The notes under the pieces were generated by a model. The model saw only the letters and a list, made by a program, of their open reading frames with translations. It did not search any database and was not told the origin of the DNA. A program made the position numbers and the translations under genes. A stretch of DNA of 55,447 nucleotides, taken from the NCBI GenBank assembly GCA_018969585.1, contig JAGWYB010000004.1, positions 1-55,447 of the forward strand, given 5' to 3'. Source of the stretch: Actinomycetales bacterium. GTDB lineage: Bacteria; Actinomycetota; Actinomycetes; Nanopelagicales; Nanopelagicaceae. Positions 6,922 to 27,374 of the stretch are shown in pieces (position 1 is the first letter of the stretch; each line of letters opens with the position of its first letter).

Positions 6922-6940
6922 AACCACCTCTCTTACTTAA

Positions 6941-7031
6941 GGATCCCCCGCACACCCATTAGAGCGGGCCTACCCTTGCTGCCTTCCAGCCCTGGGGGAG
7001 TTCGGCACGTTAATGCCGCACGGAGGATCTG
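6941..7031 (-). ncRNA. ffs: Signal recognition particle RNA (small bacterial type)
   Basis: On the minus strand this stretch contains the SRP domain IV signature GGAAGGCAGCAAGGGTAGG (6969-6987), the Ffh-binding loop. The ends pair with each other: GATCCTCCG (7021-7029) against CGGGGGATC (6942-6950), closing a rod-shaped RNA of about 90 bases without an Alu domain. The exact ends are estimated from pairing. It lies directly upstream of dnaX, as in many actinobacteria. No terminator space exists between it and the dnaX ribosome site. Confidence 0.93.
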
Positions 7032-7079
7032 CGGTGAATCATAGTTAGGAGCACCGATACCCTTCTCTCCTGCTTTACT

Positions 7080-7164
7080 GGAGGATTCGCATAGCGGCCG
7101 AGTGCGCACGCTTGGAAAGCGTGTATAGGGAAACCTATCGAGGGTTCAAATCCCTCATCCTCCG
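7080..7164 (+). tRNA. tRNA-Ser (anticodon GGA)
   Basis: An 85-base class II tRNA. The acceptor arm GGAGGAT pairs with ATCCTCC, the anticodon stem is CACGC/GCGTG with loop TTGGAAA (anticodon GGA at 7114-7116), a long variable arm follows, and the T arm is GAGGG-TTCAAAT-CCCTC. Discriminator base G, as usual for serine; no CCA is encoded. It reads UCC and UCU codons. It lies divergent from the SRP RNA with about 50 bases between them. Confidence 0.97.
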
Positions 7165-11054: not shown

Positions 11055-11768
11055 ATGCAGCGGTTAGTAGTTATTCCTACCTATAACGAGGTAGGTGGTA
11101 TAGAAATACTCTTAACGGAAATTCTTAAAACTATTAAGAACTTAGATATATTGGTCGTTGATGGCGGCTCTAACGATGGCACTTCTCAAGCAGTCGCTCA
11201 AATTGTAAATCTTGAACCCAGAGTTAATCTTATTTCTGAAGGTGCTAAGCGCGGCTTAGGTAAGGCATATCTCGCTGGCTTTGCATGGGGTTTAGAGCGC
11301 GGTTACGAAAAAATTATTGAGATGGATGCCGATCTTTCCCATCGCGTATTAGATCTTTCTAGTCTACTTGAAGCTAAAGCTGATTTGGTCATCGGAAGTC
11401 GATGGATTGTTGGCGGTGGTATTGAAAACTGGTCTAAATCCCGAGAATTACTCTCAAGAATCGCTAACAAATATGTTCAATTCATGCTTAAGCTAGATGT
11501 TTCTGATGCAACCAGCGGTTTTCGCGAATATCGCGCTGATCTATTACGCAAAATTGATCTCAAAAGAATCAAGAGCGAGGGATATACCTTCCAGATTGAA
11601 ATGGTGAGAGCTGCACGCAAAGTTGGCGCAGAGATTGTTGAAGTTCCAATAATTTTTCGCGAACGCGAATTTGGCAAGAGCAAGATTTCGCGCGGAATTA
11701 TCTTTGAGGCGCTCTTGCGAGTTAGTTATTGGGGATTGAAAAGAATTGGCGGTGGCGGTGGGATTTGA
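11055..11768 (+). CDS. Polyprenol-phosphate mannosyltransferase (GT2)
   Basis: A 237-residue family 2 glycosyltransferase of the dolichol/polyprenol-phosphate mannose synthase type. It should transfer mannose from GDP-mannose to polyprenyl phosphate at the membrane, giving the donor for cell-envelope mannosylation. Visible motifs are VVIPTYNEVGGIE, VVDGGSNDGTSQ, the metal-binding EMDADLSH, GSRWIVGGGIENW and TSGFREYR. It lacks the C-terminal membrane domain, like the catalytic module of actinobacterial Ppm1. No clear ribosome site is seen. The last six codons (GGGGGI and stop) are read from the antisense of tRNA-Ser(CGA). Confidence 0.9.
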   Translation: MQRLVVIPTYNEVGGIEILLTEILKTIKNLDILVVDGGSNDGTSQAVAQIVNLEPRVNLISEGAKRGLGKAYLAGFAWGLERGYEKIIEMDADLSHRVLDLSSLLEAKADLVIGSRWIVGGGIENWSKSRELLSRIANKYVQFMLKLDVSDATSGFREYRADLLRKIDLKRIKSEGYTFQIEMVRAARKVGAEIVEVPIIFREREFGKSKISRGIIFEALLRVSYWGLKRIGGGGGI

Positions 11769-11836
11769 ACCCACGGTTGAGTTTCCCCAACACGCGCTTT
11801 CGAGGCGCGCTCCTTAGGCCGCTCGGACACGCCACC
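11750..11836 (-). tRNA. tRNA-Ser (anticodon CGA)
   Basis: On the minus strand a class II tRNA begins GGTGGCGTGTCCGAGCGG. Its anticodon stem is GCGCG/CGCGC-like with loop CTCGAAA (anticodon CGA), a long variable arm follows, and the T arm is GTGGG-TTCAAAT-CCCAC; the acceptor closes with CGCCACC. The discriminator is G. It reads UCG codons. Its 3' 19 bases overlap, in antisense, the end of the mannosyltransferase gene. tadA follows nearby, downstream of unrelated sequence on the same strand. Confidence 0.96.
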
Positions 11837-25240: not shown

Positions 25241-25266
25241 CGCTTCGCGACTACCTTCCCTCAAGT

Positions 25267-25281
25267 CGTATAGACATTTAG
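25267..25281. promoter_or_regulatory. Predicted GntR/HutC-type operator, site 2
   Basis: CGTATAGACATTTAG lies between the divergent GntR and SIS genes, 26 bases upstream of each start. It shares 14 of 15 bases with site 1 and 13 of the 15 bases GTATAGACATTTAGC with site 3. Position next to the regulator suggests autoregulation. Confidence 0.65.
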
Positions 25282-25302: not shown

Positions 25303-26103
25303 ATGTCGGCTGCTGGTTCATCACCATTAGCAGGGCGATGGACCGCGGCCGCTCATGGTCTTCTAGAACGGCTTATGACTGAGCAAGGTAATGCCATCTC
25401 CCAGGCTGCGCAATGGTGTTTTGAAAGTATTTCTAACGATGGTGTTGTGCATCTATTTGGTTCTGGCCATTCTCGAATTCCAATTGAAGAGATGTTCCCG
25501 CGATATGGATCCTTCCCGGGTTTCAATCCAATTGGCGAGCTATCAATGACTTTCCATACCCAGATTGTCGGAGCCAACGGGCAGCGCCAGGCGATGTTCA
25601 TTGAACGCGTTGAGGGATTAGCTGACCAGATTCTCGATAACTGGATATTTAAATCCCAAGACCTACTTTTTGTCTTTAGCGTTAATGGTAAGTCGGCTGT
25701 TCCGCTAGAGATGGCGCGCGGCGCTAGAAAAGCTGGAATTAAAACAATTGCAATAACTTCAGTTACTCAAAACAAAGATGGTAAACCAACCCACTCAAGT
25801 GGCACTACCTTGATTGATCACGCTGATTTAGTAATCGACTTATGTACGCCCATTGGAGATGCGCTAATTGATATTCCTGGACTTGAGACTCGAGTAGGTC
25901 CGGGATCCAGTGTTACCGCAATCGCTATAGTCAATGAAATTAAAGTCCAGACTGCAGATCTCTTGGTGCGCAGCGGATATTTACCGCCAGTTCTCACCAG
26001 CTCCTCGGTCGTGGGAAGCGAGAAGAGCAAGGCGCTCTTCGACTCGGCCTATGCCGAGCATGCCCGGCGCATTTCATCTCGAATGAGAGGCGCGGGGGGA
26101 TAA
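25303..26103 (+). CDS. SIS-domain phosphosugar-binding protein (UPF0309-like)
   Basis: A 266-residue protein with one SIS domain: VHLFGSGHSRIPIEEMFPRYG, VFSVNGKSAVPLEMARGARKAGIKTIAITSV, and GDALIDIPGLETRVGPGSSVT. It matches the UPF0309 group, related to N-acetylmuramate-6-P etherase and to GmhA. It may isomerise or hydrolyse a sugar phosphate. A strong AGGGGG site precedes the ATG. It sits downstream of operator site 2 and directly upstream of the ABC transporter, with the hairpin-rich region between them. Confidence 0.82.
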   Translation: MSAAGSSPLAGRWTAAAHGLLERLMTEQGNAISQAAQWCFESISNDGVVHLFGSGHSRIPIEEMFPRYGSFPGFNPIGELSMTFHTQIVGANGQRQAMFIERVEGLADQILDNWIFKSQDLLFVFSVNGKSAVPLEMARGARKAGIKTIAITSVTQNKDGKPTHSSGTTLIDHADLVIDLCTPIGDALIDIPGLETRVGPGSSVTAIAIVNEIKVQTADLLVRSGYLPPVLTSSSVVGSEKSKALFDSAYAEHARRISSRMRGAGG

Positions 26104-26109
26104 CGGAAA

Positions 26110-26211
26110 ATTTATCCGCCAGCCCTTCCCAGCGAGGGGCGCCCGGTGGGTAAATAGGGACCTTGGTTGGCTCGAGCCGGCCGGGACTCTATGAGTTACA
26201 ACTAGTACTAG
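26110..26211 (+). ncRNA. Candidate structured RNA leader of the sugar transporter
   Basis: Between the SIS gene and the binding-protein gene I can draw consecutive hairpins. The first has an outer stem of 11 pairs (26110-26120 with 26145-26155) with an inner stem GCCCTT/AGGGGC (26122-26127 with 26135-26140). The second has ten pairs (26162-26171 with 26176-26185) closing on TCGA. The third is ACTC-TAT-GAGT (26186-26196). The palindrome CTAGTACTAG (26202-26211) abuts the ribosome site GGAAGGG. Several G-U pairs favour folding as RNA. Whether it is a leader, riboswitch or terminator is open; no U-run follows. Confidence 0.45.
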
Positions 26212-26224
26212 GAAGGGAAAGAGA

Positions 26225-27295
26225 ATGAAATCAAGAAAGTCGATGAAGCCGCTTTTTGCAGCGGCAACATCAGTCGCACTTGTTCTTGGAATGTCTCTAA
26301 CTGCCGCACCAGCTAACGCTAATAACTATGTAATTGGCGTAAGCAATGGTTGGGCAGGAAATTCATGGCGCGAGACAATGGTTTGCGCAATTAAGGCAGA
26401 AGCTACTCTCTCCAAGAAAGTATCAAAGGTCCTTGTATCGTCACGTAATACTGATGCTGCAGGCCAATCTGCTGACGTTCGCGCATTTATCAGCCAGAAA
26501 GTAAATGCAATTATCATTAACCCAGGTGATAAGGATGCAATTAACCCAGCACTTGGCGAAGCTATTAAAGCTGGCATCAAAGTCATCGCAGTTGATGGAC
26601 CGGTAAGCGCTCCTGGCGCATATATCGTTTCCAACGACCAGAAGAAGTACGGCGCAGCAGGTGCTGAAGCTCTTGCAAAGGCCATGAACTACAAGGGCAA
26701 TGTTCTTTACATGCGCGGTATTTCCGGTCACCCAGCTGACACTCTCCGTGACGAAGGCTTCAAGTCGGTCATGGCGAAGTACAAGAACATGAAGGTGACT
26801 AAAGAAGTATTCACCAACTGGGATTGGGCAAAGGGTGGCGAGCTTGCAAAGCAGCTACTTAAGCCAGGTAAGTTCCAAGGAGTTTGGACTTCCGGTATCG
26901 ACTATCCAGTAGTCGAAGCTATGAAGACAAACCTACGTGGCAAGTACATCCCACTAGTTGGTGCTGATAACAACGAGTTCCTCCGCCAGACCAAGGAATT
27001 GGCAAGCAAGGGCTTCGTTGGAATCGTCGTATCTAACCCAGCCGTTATCGGTGGCGCCGGACTTAAGGTCGCTCTCGATGTTCTTGATGGTAAGACCGTT
27101 GCAAGCGAGTCACTATTGACTCCAACTGCTTGGACTTACAAGGCAAACAAGAAGGAGATTGATTCTTCTTACTTCGTTGGCCAAGAGGCGACATTCTCAA
27201 GCGCCGTCAAGATCCCTGGCTACACAACCTTCAGCCCAGCACAGCTGTTCCGCTGCAAGGCACCACAAGACTCCGATGACGGAGCTCGTGCATAG
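26225..27295 (+). CDS. Sugar ABC transporter substrate-binding protein (CUT2 type)
   Basis: A 356-residue periplasmic-binding-protein (type 1, Peripla_BP_4-like) sugar receptor. The signal peptide is basic MKSRKSMK, then a hydrophobic core ending TAAPANA (residues 26-32). Mature binding-fold motifs are GVSNGWAGNSWRETM, NPGDKDAINPAL and VDGPVSAPGAYIVSND. No lipobox cysteine is present, unusual for a Gram-positive receptor. Codon choice (AAG, TAC, AAC, CTT rich) differs from neighbours and suggests high expression. First gene of the transporter operon. Ligand unknown. Confidence 0.92.
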   Translation: MKSRKSMKPLFAAATSVALVLGMSLTAAPANANNYVIGVSNGWAGNSWRETMVCAIKAEATLSKKVSKVLVSSRNTDAAGQSADVRAFISQKVNAIIINPGDKDAINPALGEAIKAGIKVIAVDGPVSAPGAYIVSNDQKKYGAAGAEALAKAMNYKGNVLYMRGISGHPADTLRDEGFKSVMAKYKNMKVTKEVFTNWDWAKGGELAKQLLKPGKFQGVWTSGIDYPVVEAMKTNLRGKYIPLVGADNNEFLRQTKELASKGFVGIVVSNPAVIGGAGLKVALDVLDGKTVASESLLTPTAWTYKANKKEIDSSYFVGQEATFSSAVKIPGYTTFSPAQLFRCKAPQDSDDGARA

Positions 27296-27319
27296 TTAGA
27301 ACGCGATAAGCGTTTACCG

Positions 27320-27347
27320 AACCTCAGAGCCGAAAGGCTCTGAGGTT
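27320..27347 (+). terminator. Intercistronic hairpin after the binding-protein gene
   Basis: A perfect 12-base-pair stem (AACCTCAGAGCC with GGCTCTGAGGTT) capped by a GAAA tetraloop, 24 bases after the binding-protein stop and 27 before the ATPase start. No T-run follows, so partial termination or 3' mRNA protection is likelier than full termination. Confidence 0.65.
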
Positions 27348-27374
27348 CTCACTTGAAAAACGTGAAGGGAAGCG

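Follow-up and report, generated by a model that had tools for sequence, protein, structure and literature searches.

In the ABC transporter operons of Escherichia coli, the differentially stabilised gene is invariably that of the substrate-binding protein (SBP), and the protective hairpins are devoid of U-tracts; papA is protected by a hairpin at its 5′ side (PMC5927463). In the cip-cel operon of Clostridium cellulolyticum, intergenic stem-loops set the stoichiometry of the gene products through selective RNA processing and stabilization (PMC4423207). The sugar transporter locus analysed here resembles malEFG among the E. coli ABC operons (PMC5927463) in that a stable, U-tract-free hairpin adjoins the substrate-binding gene; unlike malEFG, where the hairpin lies 3′ of the SBP gene, hairpins known here from sequence alone were found both 5′ and 3′ of it. 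With the 5′ protective stem-loop of papBA (PMC5927463) it shares an intercistronic hairpin just 5′ of the gene whose product is required in greater quantity, whereas the RNase E-type cleavage 5′ of the hairpin belongs to papBA and the hairpins of our locus were read from the DNA. As in cip-cel (PMC4423207), orthologous intergenic stem-loops occupy the same operon place in related species; in contrast to our locus, processing sites were mapped in cip-cel, and its stem-loops are mainly located at the 3′ ends of abundant transcripts. By analogy, the hairpin pair described below would fit an already known kind of element, the intercistronic protective hairpin.

The window, i.e., the whole stretch of 55,447 nucleotides analysed, derives from an actinobacterium of the family Nanopelagicaceae. 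It contains the following features of interest.

25264 to 25280, plus strand: ATTGGTATAGACATTT-like element in the intergenic region of GntR-UTRA and SIS; all family orthologues examined have it
25303 to 26103, plus strand: upstream gene, SIS-domain sugar isomerase-like protein (Pfam SIS_2; NCBIfam PRK02947)
26110 to 26155, plus strand: hairpin 1, 11-bp outer stem ATTTATCCGCC/GGTGGGTAAAT around a 7-bp stem GCCCTTC/GAGGGGC
26154 to 26192, plus strand: hairpin 2, ATAGGG.CCT.GGTTGGC-TCGA-GCCGGCC.GGG.CTCTAT
26186 to 26196, plus strand: small hairpin with the sequence ACTC-TAT-GAGT
26202 to 26211, plus strand: palindrome CTAGTACTAG, just 5′ of the SBP ribosome site GGAAGGG
26225 to 27295, plus strand: downstream gene, sugar-binding protein (SBP; Peripla_BP_4)
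27319 to 27348, plus strand: perfect 13-bp hairpin with a GAAA loop in the SBP/ABC-ATPase gap (gap z −7.8)

The SBP gene is followed by genes for an ABC ATPase, a BPD_transp_2 permease, a second permease, a Gfo/Idh/MocA oxidoreductase, and a xylose-isomerase-like protein, and a gene for a GntR-UTRA regulator is divergent from SIS. The gaps flanking the SBP gene measure 121 and 79 nt and all remaining operon gaps ≤15 nt; gene order and gap sizes suggest an operon. The ATTGGTATAGACATTT-like element, found at the same place in loci L002–L007 and L029–L032, resembles a GntR-type operator and is likely the operator/promoter of the operon. Since the control site thus most likely lies 5′ of SIS, the hairpin chain sits inside the operon, between two co-directional genes. 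Elsewhere in the window, a bacterial small SRP RNA (6936–7032, minus strand) and two tRNA genes (7080–7164, plus strand; 11750–11836, minus strand) were located.

The stems of which the earlier note had spoken were all found. Six nucleotides lie between the SIS stop codon and hairpin 1, whose outer stem pairs 26110–26120 with 26145–26155, including two G-U pairs, and encloses the inner 7-bp stem (26122–26128 with 26134–26140). In hairpin 2, the TCGA loop is carried by 7 bp, with a bulge, a mismatch, and further helices of 3 and 6 bp beneath. The two hairpins abut in an 84-nt core (26110–26193), with A26154 and T26155 common to hairpin 2 and the extended stem of hairpin 1. The core had a folding energy of −43.5 kcal/mol with a z of −3.16, and as good a value was reached in 4 of 500 dinucleotide shuffles. 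Hairpin 2 alone gave z −3.3 (1/500 shuffles as good) and hairpin 1 alone (26112–26153) z −2.4 (9/500); pair probabilities within the hairpins were mostly 0.8–1.0. The fold of the full 121-nt SIS-SBP gap was not significant versus shuffles (z −1.0 to −1.2). The ACTC/GAGT hairpin, presented earlier as a further member of the chain, does exist, but its pairing and that of the base of hairpin 2 are mutually exclusive. The palindrome indeed touches the ribosome site and is kept in the sole congener.

The window's own leader sequence is narrowly distributed. An SBP orthologue was identified in 11 of 296 family genomes, including two from the window's genus, and only these two share the leader (94% identity). 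A covariance model built from both sequences retrieved no third member from the 296 family genomes, a DNA search within the genus gave a single real relative, none was found among the viral contigs searched, and a class-wide SBP search added one further, distant genome. Rfam returned nothing relevant at gathering or permissive thresholds, the only match being a chance one to an lncRNA (E 0.48). Three stem changes distinguish window and congener, all in hairpin 2 and all pair-preserving exchanges of G-C or C-G with G-U or U-G; two-sided changes were absent from this comparison of two sequences, which are too few for a covariation test. For the proposal that the G-U pairs reflect selection at the RNA level, G-U pairs alone are a weak argument. 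The congener's ensemble is split, with hairpin 1 at about 0.68 and the base of hairpin 2 at about 0.3–0.5.

At least two hairpins were present in 11 of 11 orthologous SIS-SBP gaps, with sequences that vary by genus. Although the proteins of the orthologous operons are approximately 65–70% identical, the gaps have no primary-sequence core in common, and those of the nine other family orthologues are unrelated in sequence to the window's. The first hairpin is mostly located ≤ ~15 nt from the SIS stop, and z was negative for all orthologous gaps, reaching −3.4 to −5.4 in one group. In group A (four sequences, L024–L027), 97% of the cells pair and seven pairs show two-sided changes; in group B (five sequences) the corresponding values are 91% and eight pairs, the structures of both groups being derived from the same alignments as used for these counts. 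The compensatory changes in the two groups exceed those in shuffled and slid controls. The covariation thus comes from sister groups whose gap sequences are unrelated to the window's.

Several individual elements were observed in these gaps. Hairpin 1 of group A is followed by TTTT and is terminator-like. The same gaps contain a AATTCTTGCT-N7-AGTRAGAATT dyad, the innermost pair of which covaries while a G-U pair is invariant in 4/4 sequences. Exact matches to the AATTCTTGCT dyad occur once per genome in the four genomes, at this locus only, and its candidacy as a regulon element was rejected on this ground. In L028–L032, a conserved TATCAATTTGGTATCAA direct-repeat element overlaps the first hairpin on its 3′ side; its likeness to the upstream operator makes it a candidate second site for a regulator. 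Group B has a GGTACCAGTT-type site near the ATTGGTATAGACATTT-like element. Outside the family, a 9-bp hairpin lies shortly 5′ of a similar SBP gene in Planotetraspora.

Hairpins also adjoin SBP genes elsewhere. A strong hairpin occupies the SBP/ABC-ATPase gap in 10 of 10 orthologues examined, a count that leaves out L055, which was read on the wrong strand. Four further ABC operons in the window's genome have hairpins of 12–18 bp directly 3′ of the SBP gene.

L077, 3215 to 3354: strong hairpin after the SBP gene
L080, 4303 to 4384: strong hairpin after the SBP gene
L081, 3642 to 3725: strong hairpin after the SBP gene
L082, 3181 to 3260: strong hairpin after the SBP gene

Some of these are followed by short U runs. 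A fifth SBP gene of this genome, situated inside an operon, has tandem hairpins 5′ of the gene; the upstream side of the SBP gene in L078 is free of hairpins. The best hairpins of the five SBP-adjacent gaps had z values of −3.3 to −9.0. Of eight other co-directional gaps, six gave −0.7 to +1.4 and two about −4; the sets are small and were chosen after the hairpin survey, with controls from individual stretches of the genome. Because two co-directional gaps without an SBP gene hold hairpins too, the association is a trend.

From these data, the paired intercistronic mRNA hairpins of this GntR-controlled sugar ABC operon probably protect or uncouple the SBP mRNA segment; we favour this function because of the pattern of position and pairing and the close published precedent. 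If SIS and SBP are co-transcribed, transcription through the gap would place the hairpins as a barrier near the start of the SBP segment, which would be bracketed by them and the post-SBP hairpins. Cleavage and exonuclease decay would leave a stabler SBP mRNA, and SBP would be made in excess over its neighbours. Position and pairing are kept in the orthologues while the sequence was turned over between genera, which points to a generic hairpin function rather than a ligand-binding core; the location of the conserved regulator-linked site 5′ of SIS and the greater width of the two SBP gaps compared with the rest of the operon also count in favour. Against protection count the restriction of the window lineage to two sequences, the whole-gap z of only −1.0, and the short U run in group A.

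That U run belongs to the main rival explanation, which we regard as possible though clearly less probable: hairpin 1, alone or together with hairpin 2, would terminate or attenuate the SIS transcript, and SBP would be transcribed from a separate promoter within the gap, where dyads such as CTAGTACTAG or, in group A, AATTCTTGCT would serve as operators. The earlier suggestion that the first part of the chain ends the SIS transcript or acts like an attenuator is hence retained as an alternative, given the short distance, usually ~15 nt or less, between SIS stop and first hairpin; the conserved dyads and the TATCAATTTGGTATCAA element within the gaps of sister groups agree with an internal promoter. 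However, neither window hairpin has a U-tract on its 3′ side, so that the GC-rich hairpin and U run of an intrinsic terminator, a definition covering the U-tract type only, are not combined here, and terminator prediction listed no plus-strand terminator in the window's SIS-SBP gap. No promoter-like match above shuffles was obtained in any gap, by a scan that equally misses the presumed promoter 5′ of SIS, and the G-U pair invariant in group A makes its dyad more RNA-like than a DNA symmetry.

The novel sugar-sensing RNA proposed in the earlier note was not supported, since a shared core is missing, the model matches two genomes, and SBP-flanking hairpins are general in the genome. In a wider form, a lineage-specific riboswitch or protein-responsive attenuator would use alternative pairing, e.g., ACTC/GAGT versus the base of hairpin 2, to make SBP expression depend on a sugar or protein. 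The stable multi-hairpin fold, the mutually exclusive pairings, and the split congener ensemble are in line with such a leader, which we nevertheless consider improbable: Rfam gave no match, the covariance model is confined to two genomes, the location is within the operon and not that of a 5′ leader, and homologous gaps are unrelated between genera where riboswitch leaders conserve a sequence core. Conserved hairpins without conserved sequence count against a ligand-binding aptamer. Folding of a GC-rich spacer by chance is disfavoured and appears very unlikely; the low whole-gap z would allow it, but the core z of −3.2 argues for a real RNA structure, as do recurrence and covariation in two sister groups.

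The finding suggests that streamlined small-genome actinobacteria use intercistronic hairpins to adjust how much binding protein is made relative to the transporter. Hairpins kept by position and pairing, and not by sequence, would extend a known principle to a modest degree, and a striking hairpin chain 5′ of a transporter is not necessarily a riboswitch.
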